Below are positions 21,111 to 43,363 of a stretch of DNA of 64,000 nt, piece after piece. Both the position numbers and the translations under genes were made by a program. The notes beneath the pieces are model-generated. The model saw only the letters and a list, made by a program, of their open reading frames with translations. It ran no database searches and had not been told where the DNA came from. This DNA comes from an uncultured Maribacter sp. GTDB lineage: Bacteria; Bacteroidota; Bacteroidia; Flavobacteriales; Flavobacteriaceae. The DNA lies in NCBI GenBank assembly GCA_947504045.1, contig CANNFY010000001.1, positions 496,001-560,000 of the forward strand, in the 5' to 3' direction. Numbering within the stretch: the stretch's first letter is position 1; each line of letters begins with the position of its first letter.

Positions 21111-22739
21111 TTAGTGTTTTATGTTTTTGGCTTTTAAAAATCTATCTAGATTTTCTTGGTTTAATGCATCACTATCTCCATATTTTGCTCTCATTTTTTC
21201 TAGTTGTACATGCATATTTTCTTTTACACTTGCATAAGAGGCATCTTCATAAAGGTTATGCATTTCTGTGGGGTCTTTTTCTAGATCGTACAATTCCCAC
21301 TTATCAATATCATGATAAAAATGAATAAGCTTATACCTATCTGTTCTTACTCCGTAATGGCGTTTTACTTTATGCTCTGCAGGGTATTCATAAAAAGTAT
21401 AATAAATAGCGTTTCGCCACTCGCTTGTTTCGCCACTTACTAATTTTCTTAAAGATTCCCCTTGTATACTTTCGTCAATTTCTACATTGGCATAATCTAA
21501 AAATGTTGGTGCAAAATCTATATTCTGTACTAACTCTTCTATAACCGTACCGGGTTTAATTTCTTTAGGATATTTCATTAAAATAGGGGTTCTAAAAGAC
21601 TCTTCATACATAAAGCGCTTATCAAACCAACCGTGTTCTCCTAAATAAAAACCTTGGTCTGATGTGTATACGACAATTGTATTTTCTTCTAACCCATTTT
21701 CTTTTAAATAATCTAAAACCTGTCCAACACCATCATCTACAGATTGTATGGTTCTAAGATAATCGTGCATGTATCTATTATATTTCCAAATTGCTAGATC
21801 TTTTCCTTTTAAGTTTTTAGATTTAAAATCTGTAATAATAGGATCATAATAGGCATCCCAAGCTGCTTTTTGCTCCTCGGTCATTCTATCATACTTTCTT
21901 TGGAACATACCTCTGTATTTGGTTTTAAGCTCGCCTTCTTTATCTAGCATTTTTAAATCATAAACCAAATCCATGTCTTTATAAATACTCATTTCTTGGG
22001 CAGCTGCAGCAGGCCTATCTTTATAATCATCAAAGAAATTGGCAGGAGGATCAAAGGTGATGCTATCCATTAATGTTAAGTATTTTTCTTCTGGCATCCA
22101 GGTTCTATGCGGAGCTTTTTGATGATACATTAACATAAATGGTTTTTCTTTATTACGCTTTGTATCTAACCAATCTAAAGCAATATCTGTAGTAACATGG
22201 GTTATATAACCCGGATATGTTTTTTTAACCCCATTTTCTATAAAGTCTGGAGAATAGTACTGCCCTTGACCTGGAAGCACATTAGAATAATTAAATCCTT
22301 GTGGTAAACCATCTAGGTGTATTTTACCAACTAAAGCCGTTTCGTAGCCATTTTTTTGTAAGGCTTTAGCAAAATTATCTTGATCCCAATTAAAAGGACG
22401 AATATTATCTACTTTACCATTAACAAAACTATGTTTACCTGTAAGCATTGCAGCTCTACTTGGTGCACATATAGAGTTATTTACAAACCCTTTATTAAAA
22501 ATTGCACCCTCTTTAGCTATCCTATCTATATTTGGGGTGTTATTTAGTCCATGCCCATAAGCACTAATAGCTTGGTATGCATGATCGTCGCTCATTATAA
22601 ATATAATGTTAGGTTGCTTTGTTTCGCCTACTTCTTCTTTTTTGGCTTGTTTACAACTATATACTAATAGCAATATTCCTAATAATAGACAAAGACTAAA
22701 GTTTGCTCTTAAATTCATAATTAATTTTATTCTTTTCAT
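21111..22739 (-). CDS. Sulfatase (Cys-type; 'LGEHGWFDKR' subgroup), lipoprotein
   Basis: 'MSDDHAYQAISAYGHG', 'CAPSRAAMLTGKHSF', 'TSDQGFYLGEHGWFDKRFMYEES'; lipobox 'VYSC'. Confidence 0.94.
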   Translation of the reverse strand: MKRIKLIMNLRANFSLCLLLGILLLVYSCKQAKKEEVGETKQPNIIFIMSDDHAYQAISAYGHGLNNTPNIDRIAKEGAIFNKGFVNNSICAPSRAAMLTGKHSFVNGKVDNIRPFNWDQDNFAKALQKNGYETALVGKIHLDGLPQGFNYSNVLPGQGQYYSPDFIENGVKKTYPGYITHVTTDIALDWLDTKRNKEKPFMLMYHQKAPHRTWMPEEKYLTLMDSITFDPPANFFDDYKDRPAAAAQEMSIYKDMDLVYDLKMLDKEGELKTKYRGMFQRKYDRMTEEQKAAWDAYYDPIITDFKSKNLKGKDLAIWKYNRYMHDYLRTIQSVDDGVGQVLDYLKENGLEENTIVVYTSDQGFYLGEHGWFDKRFMYEESFRTPILMKYPKEIKPGTVIEELVQNIDFAPTFLDYANVEIDESIQGESLRKLVSGETSEWRNAIYYTFYEYPAEHKVKRHYGVRTDRYKLIHFYHDIDKWELYDLEKDPTEMHNLYEDASYASVKENMHVQLEKMRAKYGDSDALNQENLDRFLKAKNIKH

Positions 22740-22899
22740 AAATTGAATATTACATTAAAGGGAGGACCTTATTAAGATTCTCCCTTTTTAATACTAACAT
22801 AACTCTAACTTAATCACTTAATAAAGTAAATAACATATAAGAAGAGGATGAAATTAATTCGACCAATAACAAATCTAAAAAGGCGTTGGTGAAAAATTT

Positions 22900-31944: not shown

Positions 31945-33822
31945 TTAGTTTGGTATTTTTTTTACTTTATCTAACCAAGTAAATTTTAAAATTACGGTGG
32001 TAATTATAAAGACTACTAGGGTAGTAAGTGTTTTTGGATAATCTCTTATCATAAAATATATAGGCAACAAAATCATACTAGATTGCCAAATAATACCAAC
32101 AACACAATTTAACATGTCTTCTATAAAACCTTTGTTTTTTGTTATGGTTTGGTCTTCTCTTTTAAGAGCTTTATAAACTGGTGTCCACCAACCCCACGGT
32201 CTAACATTAGCATAAAACTTTTTTAAGGTGCTTAAATTTGTAGCTGGTGTTAAAAAAGTACCCAAAAAAGAACCTGTTAAAGAGACTACAAATATGATTG
32301 GGAAATTATAGATTACTGGAATATGAGAAAAATCATAAAGCCAAGTACCAATTTCAAAACTAGCTTTATTTTGATCTATTAAATATTGAAGTGTAGCTAT
32401 TATTAATCCGGAAGTCATTCCCCAAAAATATCCCCAACCATTAAAACGCCACCAAATCCATTTTAAAAAATTAGAAGCTACATAACCTCCATAAAGTGCA
32501 CTGGTAATCCACAATGTTATAGAGTTAATAGAGTCTGCAAAAAAGCCCATTATTATACCTAATATTACTATAGCAAAAGAAGCAATATGGCTTGCTTTAA
32601 TATAATGCTTAGGCGTTTCTGATGGTTTGTAATATTTTTTATAAATATCATTTACAATATATGCTGGGCCCGAATTTACAAATGCAGAAAAGGTAGACAT
32701 AAATGCTGCCAAAAGGCCAGCTAACAATAACCCTTTAATACCTACTGGCACATGGTTATTAATAACGTTTGGCAAAATAATTTCTAAATCTGCAAGGCTT
32801 AAATTATTAGAAACCGCCATTGAAGGTGCTAAATAGACTAGAGCCAAAACCACAATTCCGGAGATAAGTAAATACCTTGGTATAAATAATATTAGGTTTG
32901 TAAATCCACTCATATATGCTGCTTCTTTTACAGACCTGGTAGATAAAATACGTTGCATGTCGTAACTTGGAGTTGGCCCTGCAACACTAGCAAAAAAGCC
33001 TTTAAAAAGACACATACCTATAAAAGCACCAAACATTTTATAGCCTTGGGTATCTATAAGGCTATTAAACGTGGCAAATTGCCCTGTCCAGGAGCCTTCT
33101 AATTTATTACCAAAAAATATGGTGCTCCATTCTGTTGATAGTATCGAATTTATTTCTACATCGGATACCGTAACAAATGCATAAACTGCAATTAAAATTC
33201 CTGCTACAACCATAATACCATATTGCAATACCTCTGTAGCAACTACAGAAAACATACCCCCTTTTATGGTATAAATAGTGGTTAAAAATATAATTAACAA
33301 AGCATAACTTTGACTTGAGGTTAGTAGCACTGCATCATTTAAAATAAGAGCAGCATCCCAAGGTAAAATTACAGTCATAAATTTACCAACACCTTCAAAA
33401 AAATAGGCTATAAAACCTATAGAAGCTACTATAGCAAATATAGCTACAATTAAGTGCGATGCTCTGCCTGCTTTATCATCACCAAAACGAGTTAATATCC
33501 ATTCAGACCCCGTCATAATATTAGAACGCCTAATCCAAATGGCTAAAAACACCATGATAAAAACTTGGTTCCATATAGGCCACATCCACATAAACATAAA
33601 ACTTTTTGCTCCGTATAGAAACAGAAGTCCTACCATCCACGCGGTTCCAGAAACATCGAACATTCCTGATCCATTACTTAATCCTAAATAGTACCATTTT
33701 ATAGTTTTTCCTCCTAAAAAATAAGAGTCTAATCCTTTTGAAGCTTGTTTAGATACCCATACACCAACACCAACAGTTATTACAATATAGAGTACTATTA
33801 TTAAAATATCTATAGTATCCAT
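31945..33822 (-). CDS. Sodium:solute symporter (SSS family)
   Basis: Many TM segments, 'LDSYFLGGKTIKWYYLGLSNGSGMFDVSGTAWMVGLLFLYG'. Start placed at MDTIDILIIV (33822); the ORF-track M at 33849 would overlap the GH92 gene. Confidence 0.92.
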   Translation of the reverse strand: MDTIDILIIVLYIVITVGVGVWVSKQASKGLDSYFLGGKTIKWYYLGLSNGSGMFDVSGTAWMVGLLFLYGAKSFMFMWMWPIWNQVFIMVFLAIWIRRSNIMTGSEWILTRFGDDKAGRASHLIVAIFAIVASIGFIAYFFEGVGKFMTVILPWDAALILNDAVLLTSSQSYALLIIFLTTIYTIKGGMFSVVATEVLQYGIMVVAGILIAVYAFVTVSDVEINSILSTEWSTIFFGNKLEGSWTGQFATFNSLIDTQGYKMFGAFIGMCLFKGFFASVAGPTPSYDMQRILSTRSVKEAAYMSGFTNLILFIPRYLLISGIVVLALVYLAPSMAVSNNLSLADLEIILPNVINNHVPVGIKGLLLAGLLAAFMSTFSAFVNSGPAYIVNDIYKKYYKPSETPKHYIKASHIASFAIVILGIIMGFFADSINSITLWITSALYGGYVASNFLKWIWWRFNGWGYFWGMTSGLIIATLQYLIDQNKASFEIGTWLYDFSHIPVIYNFPIIFVVSLTGSFLGTFLTPATNLSTLKKFYANVRPWGWWTPVYKALKREDQTITKNKGFIEDMLNCVVGIIWQSSMILLPIYFMIRDYPKTLTTLVVFIITTVILKFTWLDKVKKIPN

Positions 33823-36077
33823 TAGTCTTGTTTTTGGTTTATCCCCCAATTTTTATTTGGAGTATTCCCCATTACAAAATGAAGTGTACCACCATTTAAA
33901 ATTGCTTTATGAGAAAGTGTTGTTTTATTAAATTCTTTACTATTAAGAGTAGCAGATTGAATGTAGATATTTTTATCTGAAACATTTTCTGCTTCTATAG
34001 TAAAATCTACACCCTCTTGAAGATGTATTGTAGCGTTTTCAAAAATTGGGCTTCCAATTTCATATTCTGTAGAAGCTGGATTTAAAGGATACAATCCTAT
34101 AGAACTTAATATATACCATGCACTCATTTGTCCACAATCTTCATTACCACTTAATCCGTTTGGTGTAGTATTATATTGCGTGTCCATTATATGGCGAGAC
34201 CAATATTGGGTTCGCCAGGGTTTTTCGGCATGGTTAAACATATAAGCTATATGGTGGCTTGGCTCATTACCATGCGCATATTGCCCAATTAAACCAGAAA
34301 TATCTGCAGAAATATTGTCTCCAGTAATTTCTGAGCTTTCTGTAAATAGTTGCTCTAACCTATCGGCAAAAATTGTATTTCCTCCGTGTAACTTTATTAC
34401 TTTATCTACATTATGCGGTACAAACCAACTATGTTGCCATGCGTTACCCTCGGTATAATCTGTATGCTCTCTATGATTAGAATACTTAGGATCAAAAGGC
34501 GTATGCCAAGTTTTACCATCATCGGCTTTACCACGCATAAAACCAGTTTCAAAATCAAATAAATGCTGGTATGCTGTAGATCGGTTTAAAAAATAATAAT
34601 AGTCTTCTTCTTTATTTAAGGCTTTTGCCATTTGTGCAATACACCAATCGTCATAAGCATACTCAAGAGTTATAGTTACAGACTCATCTAACAAATTATA
34701 AGGTATATAACCATACTTTTTGTAATAATTTAATCCTCGCTCATCATTATTTAACATTGTATTTTTCATGGCTTCATAGGCTACTTCAGCATCAAAACCT
34801 CCAATACCCTTTAAGTATGCTTCTACAATTACAGGAATAGAGTGGTAACCTGTCATTGTATTTGTTTCGTTACCATACAATGTCCATACTGGTAATATTT
34901 CTTTTGTTTTATAAAATTCTAACATTGTATTTGTAATGTCTGAAACCTTATCTGGAGCAATTAATGTTAATAATGGATGTTCTGCTCTAAAAGTATCCCA
35001 AAGAGAAAGGGTAGAATAAGCGGTATAGGAATTTGCCGTAACTATAGTATCATTTTCTTTTCTAAACTGCCCATTTTTATCACCAAATGTTACTGGAGCT
35101 AGTTGAGAATGATACAAGGCTGTGTAAAAAATTGTTTTAAGAGAGTCTACACTTGTTTCTACTTTAATTTTAGACAATGCTGTATTCCAATCTTCTTCGG
35201 CTTTATTTTTTACAACATCAAAATTAAAATCTCCATTATCTAAATTATCTTTTGCATTTGCAACACTTACAGAAGACAAAGCTACTTTTACTAAAAGTTC
35301 TTTATTTTCTTCCGAATTAAAAAATAATTGAGCCGCAGTTTTTGTTCCTGTAGACACCGAGTTTTCAATAATTTTATTGTCCGAAACTAAGTTATACTCC
35401 GTAATTGGTTTTGAAAATTTTGCCACAAAAAATACTTTCTGATTTTTTGCCCAACCTTTACTAAAACGATAACCTGATACCGTATAAGCATCTTCAAAAT
35501 GTAAAGAGGTATGTATTGCTTTGTCCCAATTTATTCCAAAACCTAAATCTATAATTATTGCTTGAGGGTCTTTTTTAGTAAATGTATATTTGTGTAACGC
35601 ACTTCTTAAAGAGGTAGTAACTTCTGCATTTATATTATGGTCTTCTAAAAAAACTTGATAATAACCAGGTGTTGCTTTTTCGTTTTTATGGCTGTATTTA
35701 GAAGCATAGGCAAGAGAATCTCTAGAACTTGGCGTTATAGTTAAATCTACTTTCTTATTAATAGGCATTATTAAAACATCTGCCAAATCTCCAATACCTG
35801 TTCCACTTAAACTTAAATGACTAAAACCTACCATAACAGAATCGGAATAATGGTAGCCAGAACACCAATCCCATTTACTAATTCCATTAATAGGGCTAAC
35901 CTGTAACATACCAAAAGGAACAGTTGCTCCTGGATAAGTATGCCCATGACCTCCGGTTCCTATAAAGGGATCCACATAACTACTTAATGCTTTTTTATTT
36001 ACATTATTTTCTTTTTGTGTTGTAGTGCAACTAACAACACAAAATACAAGCAGATATAGTAGTGTATTGGTCTTCAT
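33822..36077 (-). CDS. GH92 alpha-mannosidase, lipoprotein
   Basis: 'YVDPFIGTGGHGHTYPGATVPFGMLQVSP', 'GFSHLSLSGTGIGDLADVL', 'SLWDTFRAEHPLLTL', 'GNEDCGQMSAWYILSSIGLYPLNP'. Start MKTNTLLYLLVFCVVSC at 36077 gives a proper lipoprotein signal. Confidence 0.94.
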   Translation of the reverse strand: MKTNTLLYLLVFCVVSCTTTQKENNVNKKALSSYVDPFIGTGGHGHTYPGATVPFGMLQVSPINGISKWDWCSGYHYSDSVMVGFSHLSLSGTGIGDLADVLIMPINKKVDLTITPSSRDSLAYASKYSHKNEKATPGYYQVFLEDHNINAEVTTSLRSALHKYTFTKKDPQAIIIDLGFGINWDKAIHTSLHFEDAYTVSGYRFSKGWAKNQKVFFVAKFSKPITEYNLVSDNKIIENSVSTGTKTAAQLFFNSEENKELLVKVALSSVSVANAKDNLDNGDFNFDVVKNKAEEDWNTALSKIKVETSVDSLKTIFYTALYHSQLAPVTFGDKNGQFRKENDTIVTANSYTAYSTLSLWDTFRAEHPLLTLIAPDKVSDITNTMLEFYKTKEILPVWTLYGNETNTMTGYHSIPVIVEAYLKGIGGFDAEVAYEAMKNTMLNNDERGLNYYKKYGYIPYNLLDESVTITLEYAYDDWCIAQMAKALNKEEDYYYFLNRSTAYQHLFDFETGFMRGKADDGKTWHTPFDPKYSNHREHTDYTEGNAWQHSWFVPHNVDKVIKLHGGNTIFADRLEQLFTESSEITGDNISADISGLIGQYAHGNEPSHHIAYMFNHAEKPWRTQYWSRHIMDTQYNTTPNGLSGNEDCGQMSAWYILSSIGLYPLNPASTEYEIGSPIFENATIHLQEGVDFTIEAENVSDKNIYIQSATLNSKEFNKTTLSHKAILNGGTLHFVMGNTPNKNWGINQKQD

Positions 36078-36115
36078 ATAGTGGTTTGGTAGATTAACTA
36101 TATAAAAATTCATAA

Positions 36116-36146
36116 ATTTAAACGGTAATGAAAGTTATTTAGACGG
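36116..36146. promoter_or_regulatory. Candidate LytTR-type direct repeat (ATTTAAACGG-N11-ATTTAGACGG, 21-bp period)
   Basis: Two near-identical 10-mers at 36116-36125 and 36137-36146, exactly 21 bp apart, between the divergent GH92 and histidine kinase genes. Confidence 0.6.
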
Positions 36147-36177
36147 ATGACATCTTAACAAAGCTAAACATCAAAAA

Positions 36178-37266
36178 ATGAAATTTATCACAAATAATTT
36201 ATATAAGGTTTCGATAAAACACCATATTCTTTTTTGGTTAGTATACTTTACACTTAATACATTAAGGTGGGGAAGCTATTTTGATGATGATTCTTTTGAA
36301 AATTATTTTCTTTCTCCATACTTCTATTCTTTTAAAACAAACTTACTGGGTTTCTTAATTCATATTGCATTAACTTATTTTAATATTTACTTTTTAATGC
36401 CAAAGTTTGTTTTTAAAAAAAGATACCTTTCTTACGTAGTAATTATTCTTTCTGCAATTTTTTTAATGGTAGTTTTTAAATTTAATGTTACCTATTTTTT
36501 TGTAAGTCAGAATGTATGGCCAGAAGGCCCAGAAGCTACAAATACCATGACTCTTAACTACATTATACAAATGATGTTTGGAGAACTTTACGTAATAACT
36601 TTTGCCACAGCAATTAAAATAACTTTAGATTTTTTAAAAGAACACCAACGTGTAGCAAATCTGGAAAAAGCTCAATTAGAAACCGAACTTCTATTTCTTA
36701 AAACACAAATATCTCCGCACTTTTTCTTTAACACTCTTAATAACATTTACTCTTTGTCTGTTGAAAAATCTAAAAAAACGCCTAAAATAATACTAATGCT
36801 TTCTGAGCTAATGCGCTATTTACTATATGAAACAAAAAACAAAAGGCAGTCTTTAGAAAAGGAAATACTTTGCATACAAAACTATTTAGACTTAGAACGA
36901 ATTAGGCATAATGATGAGTTAGAAATAGACATGTCAATCTCCGGAGAAATTCAAGATAAAGAGATTGCTCCCATTTTATTATTATCCTTTATAGAAAATG
37001 CATTTAAACATGGCGTAAATAAAAACATTGGAGAAGTAAAAATAGATATTGATTTTTCTATTAAAAATGACTATCTTTTTTTCACAATAACCAATCCTAT
37101 GCCCAAAAAATCTAAAATTGAAGATAAATTAAACAAATCTAGCGGCATAGGATTAGAAAACGTAAAAAAAAGGCTAGCTTTAGGCTATAATAAAAACGAC
37201 TATAACCTTAGTATTAGCAACAACAACGATATGTTTATCGTAAAACTCAAAATTAAAGTATCATGA
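36178..37266 (+). CDS. LytS/YehU-type sensor histidine kinase
   Basis: Four N-terminal TM segments; 'FLKTQISPHFFFNTLNNIYSL' His_kinase motif; 'IENAFKHGVNK' and 'GIGLENVKKRL' ATPase boxes. Confidence 0.95.
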   Translation: MKFITNNLYKVSIKHHILFWLVYFTLNTLRWGSYFDDDSFENYFLSPYFYSFKTNLLGFLIHIALTYFNIYFLMPKFVFKKRYLSYVVIILSAIFLMVVFKFNVTYFFVSQNVWPEGPEATNTMTLNYIIQMMFGELYVITFATAIKITLDFLKEHQRVANLEKAQLETELLFLKTQISPHFFFNTLNNIYSLSVEKSKKTPKIILMLSELMRYLLYETKNKRQSLEKEILCIQNYLDLERIRHNDELEIDMSISGEIQDKEIAPILLLSFIENAFKHGVNKNIGEVKIDIDFSIKNDYLFFTITNPMPKKSKIEDKLNKSSGIGLENVKKRLALGYNKNDYNLSISNNNDMFIVKLKIKVS

Positions 37267-37973
37267 AAATAAATTCCCTAATTATTGATGATGAGCCTTT
37301 AGCTATTAATGTAATTAAAAACTATTTACAACAAATAGACGATTTTGAGATTTCGAATACATTTAATAATGCCATAGAAGCTTTAAATTTTTTAAAAAGC
37401 AACACTGTTGACCTTATTTTTTTAGACATAAACATGCCTGTATTAGACGGCATAAACTTTATAAAAAGTTTAGAAAAACCACCGTTAATAATTATAACTA
37501 GTGCCTATGACGAGTTTGCGCTAGAAACATACGAACTAGATGTTTTAGACTATTTAATAAAACCTATTGAGTTTCCAAGGTTTATGAAAGCTCTTAATAA
37601 GGTTAATAGAAGATTAGAGAATAATACAAGCTTACATAAAAGTACTAAAGACAGACCTTATATTTTTGTTAAGATTGACAAAAAGAAAATGAAAAAAATA
37701 TTCTTAGATGAAATTTTAATAATTAAGTCTTTAAAAGATTATTTAAACATTAACACTACAACAGGAAAGTATATAATACACAGTACCTTATCCGATTTTA
37801 CAGACTTACTACCTTCCGATGATTTTATAAGAATACACCGCTCTTATACGGTGGCCATAAAAAAAATTGACACTGTTGAAGGAAACAGTGTAGAAATTGA
37901 TGGTTTTAGATACGTAATTGGAAGATCATACATTGAAGAAGTAAAAGAAAAAATACTTAACTCTGCAATTTAA
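37263..37973 (+). CDS. LytTR-family response regulator
   Basis: Receiver 'IIDDEPLAINVI', 'DLIFLDINMPVLDGI', 'DYLIKPIEFPRF'; LytTR 'FVKIDKKKMKKIFLDEILIIKSLKDYLNI', 'FIRIHRSYTVAIKKI'; overlaps HK stop (ATGA). Confidence 0.95.
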   Translation: MKINSLIIDDEPLAINVIKNYLQQIDDFEISNTFNNAIEALNFLKSNTVDLIFLDINMPVLDGINFIKSLEKPPLIIITSAYDEFALETYELDVLDYLIKPIEFPRFMKALNKVNRRLENNTSLHKSTKDRPYIFVKIDKKKMKKIFLDEILIIKSLKDYLNINTTTGKYIIHSTLSDFTDLLPSDDFIRIHRSYTVAIKKIDTVEGNSVEIDGFRYVIGRSYIEEVKEKILNSAI

Positions 37974-38120: not shown

Positions 38121-38188
38121 ATTAGTCGAAGTCCTGAAGTTACTGGTCGAAATTTTTGATTCTTTAACATTTAGAATATATAAGTTTA
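38121..38188 (+). promoter_or_regulatory. Candidate LytTR direct repeat abutting a Bacteroidetes-type promoter upstream of SusC
   Basis: ATTAGTCGAA (38121-38130) and ACTGGTCGAA (38142-38151), 21-bp period, followed by TTTG (38155-38158)-N22-TAAGTTTA (38181-38188) resembling TTTG/TAnnTTTG. Confidence 0.55.
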
Positions 38189-38335
38189 AGAATTAATTAA
38201 CCAAAACTCATACAATATATTTTTTAAAAAAATTTAAATGCCAATGAAAGAAAAACTAACTAACAAAAAAACATTTAATAAAAAAACAATTCATTTTTTA
38301 TTAAAAAAACAATAACTAATTAATACCAAACATTT

Positions 38336-41300
38336 ATGAAAATTAAAATAAAGAACAATTTTTTTTCATGTAACAAAAAGGTTTTCTCACTCGTATTAAA
38401 AACCTTTATTTTTTCAAGTATTATTGCAATATATGGGTATACACCAAATATGTATAGTGCTTCAAAAAAAGTAACTGCAATTTGGCAAGAACAAATTAGT
38501 GGTACAGTTACAGACAATAATGGTATTCCAATACCAGGAGTTAACATTCTTGTAAAAGGAACTACTAATGGAGTACAGACAGACTTTGATGGAAACTTTA
38601 CCATATCTTCTTCACAAGAGGATACTATATTAATTTTCTCTTATATAGGGTATGCAACAAAAGAAGTTAGTACAAACAACCAAACTAATATTACCGTTGT
38701 TTTAGAAGAAGATATTTCTGAGCTAGATGAGGTTATAGTAGTAGGTTATGGTACTCAGAAAAAAGTAAACTTAACTGCAGCAGTTTCTCAAGTAGGTGCA
38801 GAAGTTTTTGAAAACAGAGCTACTGCAAATGCATTTAGATCATTACAAGGTACTGTACCTGGTTTAGTAATATCTAACTCTGTATCTGGTGGAGAACCAG
38901 GAGCTGAATCTGAAATTAACATTCGTGGTTTTGTTACTGTAAATTCTGATGGAAATATAGATGACGCTGGACCACTAGTACTTGTAGATGGTATAGAAAT
39001 GAGTTTAAATGATATTGATCCAGAAGATATAGAATCTGTTTCTGTATTAAAAGATGCGGCAGCAGCTTCTATTTATGGTTCTCGTGCAGCTGGTGGTGCT
39101 GTTTTAGTAACTACTAAAAGCGGTAAAAATTCCAATGGAAAAGTAAGAATTAATTATAGTAATAATTTTTCGCTTACAAAACCTACCAAATGGCCTAAAA
39201 GTGCGAGCCCTATAGACTTTGCATATACAATAAACGATGCACGTACAAATAACTTACAAAATCCATATTATGATGAAACCGATTTAGCAAATATTAGAGC
39301 TAATATGGCAGATCCAGGTAGTGCGCCATCTATACAAGGTAATGCCGCTGGAACAAACTGGGCATATGGTACTATTGGAATAGAAGGTACAGGTGCTACA
39401 AACTGGGATGAAATAGTATTTAAAGATTGGGCAGAAAGACACAAACATAACTTAAGTATAAGTGGTGGAACCGAAGATTTAAATTATTATCTTTCTGGTG
39501 GTATTTATGATGAAGGTGGTTTATTAGCTGTAGGGAATGAATCTTACCAAAGATATAATTTAGACGCTAAACTATCTGCAAAAGCTAATAATTGGTTAAC
39601 CTTAGAGTTATTAACTAAAGTACGTAAAAGTAATAGTGATTTTCCAACAGAAACAAATGTAAATACTGTTTTTTGGAATAAATCTAGAGTTCTTGATTTA
39701 ATTACCAAGTTAAAACCAACTTTACCACAAGTTGACCCTATTTATGGAGAAGAGTTATTACAACACTCTTACTACCCATTCTGGGATAACCAAAGAGTAA
39801 AAGCTACCAATAACCAATTAGTTATTATCCCTAAAGTAATTATTGAGCCTATAAAAGACTTAAAATTAACAGCTCAGTTTAATTACAAGAGAGATAATAA
39901 TTTACAAGAAATAATTATTAAATCTAGCCAAATTGTTGTGCCAAATGGTTTAGTAGATAGAATTGCACAAGAAAACACAAGGTACAGACCAACCTTTATA
40001 CAACAAGATTATTTTTCTCCAAACATTTATGCTACCTATGATAAATCTATAAACGGTCATAATTTTAATGCTACTGTAGGATACCAAAGCGAATTAAATG
40101 AATATCGTTCCTTAGGTGGAGATACCGATTATTTAATTACAGATAATGTTGTATCTATAAATTCATCTTTAGATGATGATCAATTAGTTAATGAAGAAAT
40201 AACTCATTGGGCTCTTCAGAGTGTATTTAGTAGATTTAGATATAACTACAAAGAAAAGTATTTATTTGAAGTTAGCTATCGTAGAGATGGATCTTCAAGA
40301 TTTGCACCAGATGATAGATGGGCAGGATTCCCAAGTTATTCTGTAGGATATAATGTAGCAAAAGAAGATTTTTGGCCTTTAGACGCTGTTAGTACCTTTA
40401 AGCTTAGAGGTTCTTATGGTACCTTAGGAAACCAGAACGTTCAAAACTATTTATATCTTAATACTATAGATATTAACACTTCTTCTTTTTTAATAGATGG
40501 TGTTAGAGAAAACCAATCTTCAACTCCAGGTATTGGAACAGAGTCCTTAACTTGGGAAACCGTTAAAACAACCGATATTGGTTTTGATTTAACTGCATTT
40601 AATCGCAAATTAGATGTTGGTTTCTCTTGGTATAGAACAGACATAGAAGGTATGGCTGCCCAAGGGGTAGATTTACCAGCACAATTAGGAACAACTGCAC
40701 CATTTACAAACATAGGTACCTCTAGAGTACAAGGTTGGGAAGTAGAAGCAACATGGAGACAACAATTAGGTGATGATTTAAGTTTTAGCTTAAGAGGTGT
40801 ATTATCGGATTATAAAAGAACTATTGTAGAATATCCTAATGAAAATAATAGCCTAGCTTTAGCACATTATTCTGGTAAAGATTTAGGAGAAATTTGGGGA
40901 TACCAAACAGATGGTTTATTCCAAACTAATGAAGAAGCTACAGCCTATACAGAAGCAGTAGACCAGTCTTTTATTAATGGTTTTGCATATGTAGCTGGAG
41001 ATTTAAAATATGTTGATACAGATAACAGTGGGGATATTAATAGAGGAGAAAACACAGTAGATGATTCTGGAGATTTACAAATTATTGGTAATTCTACTCC
41101 ACGATATCAATATTCTGGAAATTTAGCTGTAAACTATAAAAACTGGGATTTTAACGCTTTAGTACAAGGTGTTGGTAAAAGAGATGTACAGTTAAGAAGC
41201 CAAGGTTTTAGAGGGCCATCTAACGGGCCGTTCCATGCCTTTGTTTGGGAAGGTCATTTAGATTACTTTAGACCAGAAGATACTACAAACCCTTTAGGAG

Positions 41301-41626
41301 CAAATACAGATGCTTATTTTCCTAATCCATATTTAAATGGTGGAGGTAGAACTAACAAAAACTATAGTGTAAACACAACTCACTTTTTACAAAGTGCAGC
41401 TTACTTTAGACTTAAAAGTTTATCTATTGGTTATACCATACCTAGAGATGTTACTCGTAAAAGCAATATTGATAAAATACGTCTTTTCGCAACAGGAGAA
41501 AATTTATTTACCCAAACTGACTTGATGTTTTATGATCCAGAAGCTATTACATCGGGCTTAACGGGTAGTGCACAATCTTATCCACTATCTAAGATAGTAT
41601 CACTAGGATTAAATGTATCATTCTAA
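38336..41626 (+). CDS. SusC-like TonB-dependent outer membrane transporter
   Basis: 'ISGTVTDNNGIPIPGVNILVKGTTNGVQTDFDGNFTI', 'LDEVIVVGYGTQKKVNLTAAV', plug 'SVLKDAAAASIYGSRAAGGAVLVTTK'. Confidence 0.97.
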   Translation: MKIKIKNNFFSCNKKVFSLVLKTFIFSSIIAIYGYTPNMYSASKKVTAIWQEQISGTVTDNNGIPIPGVNILVKGTTNGVQTDFDGNFTISSSQEDTILIFSYIGYATKEVSTNNQTNITVVLEEDISELDEVIVVGYGTQKKVNLTAAVSQVGAEVFENRATANAFRSLQGTVPGLVISNSVSGGEPGAESEINIRGFVTVNSDGNIDDAGPLVLVDGIEMSLNDIDPEDIESVSVLKDAAAASIYGSRAAGGAVLVTTKSGKNSNGKVRINYSNNFSLTKPTKWPKSASPIDFAYTINDARTNNLQNPYYDETDLANIRANMADPGSAPSIQGNAAGTNWAYGTIGIEGTGATNWDEIVFKDWAERHKHNLSISGGTEDLNYYLSGGIYDEGGLLAVGNESYQRYNLDAKLSAKANNWLTLELLTKVRKSNSDFPTETNVNTVFWNKSRVLDLITKLKPTLPQVDPIYGEELLQHSYYPFWDNQRVKATNNQLVIIPKVIIEPIKDLKLTAQFNYKRDNNLQEIIIKSSQIVVPNGLVDRIAQENTRYRPTFIQQDYFSPNIYATYDKSINGHNFNATVGYQSELNEYRSLGGDTDYLITDNVVSINSSLDDDQLVNEEITHWALQSVFSRFRYNYKEKYLFEVSYRRDGSSRFAPDDRWAGFPSYSVGYNVAKEDFWPLDAVSTFKLRGSYGTLGNQNVQNYLYLNTIDINTSSFLIDGVRENQSSTPGIGTESLTWETVKTTDIGFDLTAFNRKLDVGFSWYRTDIEGMAAQGVDLPAQLGTTAPFTNIGTSRVQGWEVEATWRQQLGDDLSFSLRGVLSDYKRTIVEYPNENNSLALAHYSGKDLGEIWGYQTDGLFQTNEEATAYTEAVDQSFINGFAYVAGDLKYVDTDNSGDINRGENTVDDSGDLQIIGNSTPRYQYSGNLAVNYKNWDFNALVQGVGKRDVQLRSQGFRGPSNGPFHAFVWEGHLDYFRPEDTTNPLGANTDAYFPNPYLNGGGRTNKNYSVNTTHFLQSAAYFRLKSLSIGYTIPRDVTRKSNIDKIRLFATGENLFTQTDLMFYDPEAITSGLTGSAQSYPLSKIVSLGLNVSF

Positions 41627-41644: not shown

Positions 41645-43363
41645 ATGAAAAAAATATTTAAGTTATCTATTCTTAGTTTGATGATTTTTCTATCATCTTG
41701 CGACGATTATTTGGATAGAACTCCTTTAGACACTATAACCGAAGCAGATTTTTACAAAACTCCTGCAGATTTAAGAGCCGCAGTTAACTCGTTTTATAAT
41801 GACTTCCCTAACTGGAACACTTTAGGCGTTGGTTTTAATATACTTCCGGATAGTTCTACAGACATGGGAACATCAGAAAGCCCAAGTAATAGAATTAGTG
41901 GTCTAGATTATACTACAACTACTTCTGCTAGTGCTGCCAACTGGAGTTTTGATGAGGTTAGAGAAACAAACTGGTTCTTAGATCATGTAGACCAAGCAGA
42001 AGGTGATGAAACAGAAATTAACCAATACATTGGTGAAGGTTATTTCTTTAGAGCATACTACTACTTTAATCTTTTAATAAGATATGGTGATGTGCCAATT
42101 TTTGACACCTATTTTGATGATAAAGACACTGAATTAATCTTTAAAGGACAAGACCCAAGAAACGAGGTTGCAGAATTTATTATTTCTGATTTAACTACTG
42201 CAGCTACCTTATTACAATCTTTTCCAGATATAGCTTCTTCACCACGTGTAAGTAGAGAAGTTGCACAACTTCTTATGGCTAGAGTAGCACTTTACGAAGG
42301 AACTTGGGAAAGATACCATGCAGGAACCGTATTTGGCGTAGATGGATCAGACGGCTCTGCATTCTTACAAATAGCTGCTGATGCTGCTGAAGATGTAATG
42401 AATAGTGGTGTATTTTCTTTACATAGCGACTATTCTACTTTGTTTAACACTGTAGGCCTTAGTGGTAATAGCGAGGTAATGCTATGGAGAGATTATAGTG
42501 TAGAAGAAAGCCAAACTAATGTATTACAACTTTCTTGGCCTAATAGATGTGGGTACACAAGATTTGCAGTTCGTAGTTACTTATGTGATGACGGTCTACC
42601 AATTTCTGTTAGCCCTAACTATGTTGGTGATCAAGATTTATCTACTATAGAAACTAATAGAGACCCAAGATTAGCCGCTACCATAATGACACCTGGTGAT
42701 TTTATTTTGGATGAACCAGATGACGCTAATGATGTACTTTGGGAAAATGCAGATTTTTCATCAGCTAACGCAGGTAATACTGCATATGAATCTCAAAAAT
42801 ACAGAAACCCAGTTATAGATGATTCTAATGATGGTGATTTCTCTATCCTAACTTCTAGAATAATTATGCGTTACGCAGAAGCATTATTAATTTTTGCAGA
42901 AGCTAAAGCTGAATTAGGTACTATTACACAAGGAGACTTAGATAGATCTATTAACTTATTACGTGCTCGTGTAAGTATGCCAGGTATTACTTTAGGTAGT
43001 ATAACACCAGATACTGAATGGCCAGATTATGGTTATAGTTTATCTGATATATTATATGAAGTTCGTAGAGAACGTTCTGTAGAATTAATGGCAGAAGGTT
43101 TTAGAGCAGATGATTTATACAGATGGAGAGCGCACAACTTATTTGATGGTGATCAACCAAGAGGTGCTTACTATGATGACCCTGTAGTAAATGCAGAATT
43201 ACCTACTACAAATGTAACTTTAGATGCAGATGGATATATTTTACCTTTTGCTAGTACAGGAGATTATAATTTTGATGAAGGTAGAGCATATTTATTACCA
43301 GTACCTTTAGATGAACTAATACTTAATCCTAACTTGGTACAAAACCCAGGATGGGATCAGTAA
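41645..43363 (+). CDS. SusD-like outer membrane lipoprotein (RagB/SusD)
   Basis: Lipobox 'FLSSCDDYLDRTPLDTITEADFY'; 'YRFRAYYYFNLLIRYGDVP'-type motif; 'EVRRERSVELMAEGFRADDLYRW'. Confidence 0.97.
   Translation: MKKIFKLSILSLMIFLSSCDDYLDRTPLDTITEADFYKTPADLRAAVNSFYNDFPNWNTLGVGFNILPDSSTDMGTSESPSNRISGLDYTTTTSASAANWSFDEVRETNWFLDHVDQAEGDETEINQYIGEGYFFRAYYYFNLLIRYGDVPIFDTYFDDKDTELIFKGQDPRNEVAEFIISDLTTAATLLQSFPDIASSPRVSREVAQLLMARVALYEGTWERYHAGTVFGVDGSDGSAFLQIAADAAEDVMNSGVFSLHSDYSTLFNTVGLSGNSEVMLWRDYSVEESQTNVLQLSWPNRCGYTRFAVRSYLCDDGLPISVSPNYVGDQDLSTIETNRDPRLAATIMTPGDFILDEPDDANDVLWENADFSSANAGNTAYESQKYRNPVIDDSNDGDFSILTSRIIMRYAEALLIFAEAKAELGTITQGDLDRSINLLRARVSMPGITLGSITPDTEWPDYGYSLSDILYEVRRERSVELMAEGFRADDLYRWRAHNLFDGDQPRGAYYDDPVVNAELPTTNVTLDADGYILPFASTGDYNFDEGRAYLLPVPLDELILNPNLVQNPGWDQ

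Follow-up and report, generated by a model that had tools for sequence, protein, structure and literature searches.

What switches on a SusC/SusD-type uptake system that lies beside its own LytTR regulator? We addressed this question in a 64,000-nucleotide stretch of the genome of an uncultured Maribacter sp. (contig CANNFY010000001.1, positions 496,001 to 560,000; the window), in which genes for a LytS-type histidine kinase (HK, 36178-37266, + strand; PF06580) and a LytTR response regulator (RR, 37263-37973, +; Response_reg and LytTR domains, PF04397 E=3.4e-18) are followed by genes for a SusC/RagA TonB-dependent transporter (38336-41626, +; TIGR04056, 840 bits, and Pfam) and a SusD-like lipoprotein (41645-43363, +; Pfam SusD_RagB and SusD-like_3). 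The membrane domain of the kinase is short, and the protein has no recognisable periplasmic sensor domain. The operon divergent from HK is led by a gene encoding a GH92 alpha-mannosidase with a lipoprotein-type start (33822-36077, -; ATG in the 36079-36077 region); the start of the longest open reading frame, at 36113, is too early, and the lipoprotein-type signal MKTNTLLYLLVFCVVSC starts at the ATG near 36077.

Pfam matches between 163 and 36113 of the window and beside it comprise PNGase F, GH20 (two), GH130, GH95, alpha-L-fucosidase, GH3 (two) and six sulfatases, and GH92 genes occur twice in the window and a third time just outside it. By this gene content, the left half of the window and its flank are predicted to be an N-glycan utilization locus, and the presence of sulfatases and fucosidases hints at N-glycans that are sulfated and fucosylated.

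A repeat pair next to the predicted susC promoter

The original prediction placed a pair of repeats and a promoter in the 362-nt intergenic region upstream of susC. Direct reading bore out the coordinates and the 21-bp start-to-start spacing of GTCGAAGT (38125-38132, +) and GTCGAAAT (38146-38153, +), which form the left half-site and the core of the right half-site of a predicted SusC operator; the extended right half-site, GTTACTGGTCGAAAT (38139-38153, +), is its best-conserved part. The promoter letters were also found as claimed, TTTG (38155-38158, +), put forward as a -33 element, being followed after 22 bases by the -7 box TAAGTTTA (38181-38188, +), which has one mismatch to the flavobacterial sigma-A -7 box TAnnTTTG (final G to A). 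Because the flavobacterial convention places the -7 box at -12 to -5 (PMC9723704), the predicted start site falls at about 38193, which puts the left half-site at about -68 to -61, the right core at about -47 to -40 and the centre of the operator at about -54. With the ATG at 38336, the predicted susC 5' leader would be about 143 nt long (38193-38335, +), in agreement with the roughly 140 nt proposed.

It had further been argued that finding the same geometry in both intergenic regions flanking the regulator genes is unlikely to be trivial. The 21-bp geometry alone is weak evidence, because the window holds, at this spacing, 149 pairs of 8-mers that agree in at least 7 of their 8 positions. 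The pattern GTYKAART-N13-GTYKAART does occur only twice in the 3.46-Mb genome, both copies flanking the HK/RR genes, but the reversed control pattern occurs four times and the consensus was fitted to the very two copies counted, so that this number does not rise above chance. Both observations would be compatible with repeats that pair up by chance in AT-rich intergenic DNA. In our reading of the sequences, the significance of the repeats comes from their conservation among orthologues, described below, and not from such counts.

Conservation of the predicted operator and -7 box in orthologous SusC promoters

Using the SusC and RR proteins as queries against 400 Flavobacteriaceae genomes, we assembled nine promoters, that of the window SusC and those of eight orthologues with 51-67% identity from other Flavobacteriaceae. 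A search of the flanks of RR orthologues had found no near-exact copies of the pair, because SusC lies elsewhere in many genomes, a problem that the search with the SusC protein solved. Every one of the nine promoters has the two half-sites at 21 bp as well as the -7 box, and they align in register over operator and -7 box, barring 1 bp in two of them. Their consensus reads GTCGAAG, a variable stretch, GTTGTTSGTCGAAWT with a T-run, about 20 variable bases and TAAGTTTA. The left half-site is kept as (G/A)TCGA and the -7 box as TA[AG]GTTTA throughout (9/9 each), and the distance from the right half-site to the -7 box is 34 bp in two promoters and 35 bp in the other seven. Over the half-sites, 8-bp bins have a mean pairwise identity of 0.68-0.84, and over the -7 box of 0.61-0.76, compared with 0.3-0.4 in most neighbouring bins. 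The site is also kept where 10-63 kb separate SusC from the regulator genes (about 60 kb in G443, 12 kb in G383 and 10 kb in G372) and is thus not a carry-over of adjacent sequence; such retention far from RR should be expected for the site of a trans-acting protein.

The proposed -33 element did not survive this comparison. TTTG is found in the window's promoter only (1/9) and TTG in two of the nine, and at this position most orthologues have a T-rich run next to the right half-site. Because the right half-site and, mostly, the T-run are conserved in place of TTTG, the susC promoter looks activator-dependent.

The motif and its spacing were also followed across the 400 genomes, with numbers that are descriptive, because the motif was derived from these same promoters and the nine species are related, so that matches are not independent: the exact motif TCGAA-N8-GTTRYYSGTCKAAW has nine matches in seven genomes, all of which have RR orthologues at 78-100% identity; with one extra spacer base (22 bp) it matches in none of the 400; the reversed control gives single matches spread over about ten genomes, nearly all outside the RR-orthologue set; and when pairs of GTCGAA and a following GTCGAAW with 3-27 bases between them were counted in the nine genomes, 8 of 24 were exactly 21 bp apart (binomial 2.7e-6), each of the eight upstream of a SusC gene. 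A chance origin, to which we assign a negligible probability, is already contradicted by the nine promoters that keep the pair at an almost constant distance from the -7 box, and by nine matches at 21 bp as opposed to none at 22 bp.

Two SusC homologues (59% identity; L086 and L088), from genomes that have no close RR orthologue, lack the operator. The L086 protein has an STN domain, as do ECF-controlled receptors, and for L088 no Pfam STN match was reported; the one protein, L086, suggests a swap from LytTR to ECF control. At the N-terminus of the window SusC, where an STN domain would point to an ECF sigma/anti-sigma system, Pfam gave no match to this domain.

The right half-site recurs in the N-glycan locus

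A less circular test is the prediction of new places by the right half-site alone (GTYRYYSGTCKAAW). In the genome of the window, this sequence has four matches only, all in or near the N-glycan locus and together spanning G000:C1 479-534 kb: upstream of susC, between GH92 and HK, upstream of a sulfatase gene by the PNGase F gene, and at G000:C1:478969. The third of these, GTTATTGGTCGAATT (22856-22870, -), lies just downstream of the PNGase F gene and 124 bp upstream of the sulfatase gene (21111-22739, -), and has no clear left half. The fourth (L163:15976, -), 17 kb to the left of the window, is a complete predicted 21-bp operator, having both a left half (ATCGAAGC, 21 bp away) and TAAGTTTA (35 bp away); the gene 68 bp past it encodes a 550-aa protein without a Pfam match, a candidate new N-glycan protein, and is followed by a GH92 gene.

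Across the genomes, 13 of 32 right half-site matches lie within 60 kb of RR where about one is expected, in a count that omits the SusC and HK sites by which the half-site was defined and with a binomial that assumes independence. The further sites inspected precede GH92, GH20-like, NagB-like, sulfatase, SusC or unassigned genes, those in the other genomes GH92, GH20-like, NagB-like and SusC genes, and the distance from the right half-site to the -7 box before other N-glycan-locus genes is about the same as at susC. Two sites in G369 (L169) also have no left half at 21 bp and have the upstream sequence AACAAGGCTTTAGAAG in common.

The HK/GH92 intergenic region keeps one half-site and a different spacing

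Of the pair originally proposed beside HK, ATTTAGAC (36137-36144) is conserved and ATTTAAAC (36116-36123) is not, at least not as a half-site. The former lies within the extended right half-site GTCATCCGTCTAAAT (36137-36151, -) of a second predicted operator, which faces the GH92 operon and is matched on the minus strand in 31 of the 34 regions upstream of HK orthologues, for example as GTTATCCGTCTAAAT or GTTGTTGGTCTAAAA; the TTTA of a -7 box follows 38-41 bp downstream in the GH92 direction, as at susC. The latter overlaps the predicted HK -7 box TAAATTTA (36113-36120, +), which reads TAnnTTTA in the HK direction in most orthologues. We therefore rejected 36116/36137 as a conserved pair and retain a single true half-site.

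The partner of this half-site is instead a GTTTAGC element (36163-36169, -) 25 bp upstream of it. In the 31 orthologues, the column consensus of the element is GTTtAg and the best partner offset is -25, an offset of -21 being outside the ten best. The expectation of one geometry in both intergenic regions consequently fails on the HK/GH92 side, which keeps its partner at 25 bp and not 21, and this spacing, together with the site at 22856-22870, speaks against universal 21-bp pairing in the proposed regulon. GTTTAGC followed 25 bp later by GTCTAAA (36137-36144, -) is seen in 31 of 34 divergent GH92/HK loci of the RR clade. The arrangement may serve the HK/RR transcript as an autorepression element.

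The adjacent LytTR regulator is the probable binding protein

The classic LytTR consensus is GTTN(A/G)(T/G), which GTCGAA and GTCTAA (GTCKAA) fit only loosely. LytTR sites have been described as two repeats of 9-11 nt with spacers of 11-13 nt and no common consensus (PMC4847170), and LytTR regulatory systems as having similar repeats just upstream of promoters (PMC6193735). The SusC sites share this format, with 8-bp cores that start 21 bp apart and leave a 13-bp spacer, and lie immediately upstream of the promoter, the right half-site being 34-35 bp from the -7 box in 9/9; the neighbouring RR (37263-37973) carries the LytTR domain. The layout of a regulator next to polymerase, as first proposed, is thus upheld by features kept in nine species.

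The repeats are conserved in sequence, spacing and position, co-occur with RR and recur in the locus, and on these grounds we consider them very probably to be the operator of the adjacent RR, through which it would activate susCD beside RNA polymerase; binding, activation and the nature of the signal are what we infer from the comparison. Since 27 other regions of the genome match RR, its identification as the LytTR protein that would bind draws on neighbourhood and co-occurrence. The best NCBIfam relative of RR is BtsR, below the cut-off.

The operator could in principle belong to another regulator, such as an AraC-type hybrid two-component system (HTCS). Operators of HTCS and SusR in Bacteroides polysaccharide loci are likewise direct repeats before susC-type genes, with an average spacing of 21 bp predicted for 16 HTCS regulons (PMC3878776), and HTCS proteins occur in the genomes analysed here. 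Those operators are bound by AraC-type or SusR-type proteins, however, whereas the protein encoded beside susC is of the LytTR type and no HTCS is found close to the loci: the stretch of G000:C1 from about 393 to 629 kb, in which the right half-sites lie at 479-534 kb, encodes no Y_Y_Y or HTH_18 protein, and no HTCS or AraC-type protein is encoded near the sites in G443, G369, G372 and G222. The exact motif, moreover, co-occurs with close orthologues of the LytTR RR. We rejected an HTCS as the binding protein on account of this absence from the loci and regard a regulator other than RR as distinctly improbable.

Nor is it at all probable that the element acts as RNA, with transcription starting further upstream and the repeats lying within a regulatory leader. 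The 362-nt intergenic region would have room for an upstream start and the susC leader is long either way, but the repeats are direct rather than inverted, their 21-bp spacing corresponds to about two turns of the DNA helix, the conserved -7 box lies downstream of them at a nearly fixed distance, and unrelated genes have the half-site upstream of their -7 boxes as well.

If RR is the binding protein, it might repress, or need another factor, instead of simply activating. In the HK direction, the 36137-36144 site would occupy about +13 to +20 of the predicted kinase transcript, a repressor-like position downstream of the start, and for bsaA, AgrA likewise acts as a repressor from a site downstream of the promoter (PMC4227749). 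At susC and the sister sites, by contrast, the site precedes the -7 box, which is the position of LytTR activators (PMC6193735). In the chitin utilization locus of Flavobacterium johnsoniae, deletion of cusS-cusR (Fjoh_4563/4564) abolishes growth on chitin and leads to loss of ChiA, which is consistent with activation in a sister system (PMC5127042). We consider repression or dependence on a further factor unlikely.

Activation of susCD by RR would then proceed as follows. The kinase (36178-37266) would phosphorylate RR in the presence of breakdown products of N-glycans, or of a signal to which these give rise; two RR subunits would bind next to each other as a tandem dimer on the same face of the DNA, covering about -68 to -40, immediately upstream of RNA polymerase; and RR would recruit polymerase to a promoter that has a good -7 box and no conserved -33 element, turning on susCD. 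From the sister sites, RR would also switch on the divergent GH92 operon, the sulfatase gene, and the unassigned gene and GH92 gene near G000:C1:479000. With less certainty, the location of the HK/GH92 site within the start of the kinase transcript means that activated RR may dampen its own synthesis by acting on HK/RR transcription.

Relation to characterised LytTR systems

The closest characterised relative is CusSR of the Flavobacterium chitin locus. In a sister clade of RRs, about 45-52% identical to the window RR, the HK-RR genes adjoin a predicted MFS-type sugar transporter gene, divergent from SusC, and this order of HK-RR, MFS-type sugar transporter and SusC genes matches that of CusSR. 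When eight SusC upstream regions of the sister clade were scanned, five had 21-bp repeats of one pattern (e.g. TGTTGTCTATGT / TGTCGTTTATAT) and a sixth had a 21-bp pair slightly further upstream. Upstream of SusC in the CusR-like clade (L046 and L047), an apparent third tandem half-site, TCGYTTATCG, is seen a further 21 bp upstream in some species. The two systems differ in substrate, chitin as opposed to N-glycans, and in half-site, TGTYGTYTRT in the sister clade as opposed to GTCGAA; the excerpt of the CusSR report mentions no binding site (PMC5127042).

More distant systems resemble the predicted operator in part. In Staphylococcus aureus, the AgrA sites at agr P2/P3 have their centres near -60 (PMC4227749), compared with the predicted -54 or so here, but AgrA differs in half-site, sigma factor, promoter type, signal and targets. 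YpdB (with a GGCATTTCAT repeat at yhjX) and BtsR of Escherichia coli are LytS/LytTR systems that control transporter genes, as proposed here, and the YpdB half-sites are likewise 21 bp apart in the printed oligonucleotide (PMC4847170); these systems differ in sensing pyruvate, in the kind of transporter and in the motif. Neither the motif nor an N-glycan regulon under LytTR control was found described in the open-access papers to which the literature search extended (subscription journals fall outside it). What appears to be new is this motif with its N-glycan regulon, the form of the LytTR operator being known already.

Taken further, and quite tentatively, these comparisons raise the possibility that LytS/LytTR systems form a class of polysaccharide-locus regulators in Flavobacteriaceae, divided into two or more specificity groups (GTCKAA for N-glycans, TGTYGTYTRT for chitin). 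Their operators, set at a constant distance from the -7 box, would replace the -33 element, and a 25-bp variant at the divergent promoter would activate the GH92 operon while damping the system's own kinase and regulator genes; we hold this scheme as a whole to be possible rather than probable.

Significance for glycan utilization

The regulators proposed for Bacteroides glycan loci are SusR-like proteins, HTCS and ECF sigma/anti-sigma systems (PMC3878776). With a LytTR operator that is conserved, a further class of glycan-locus regulator would gain a predictive DNA motif, by which members of the regulon can be found from sequence. The shared control would tie a SusC of unknown substrate to the N-glycan enzymes, and the operator would offer an exact, mutable target for studying how glycoprotein foraging is switched on.
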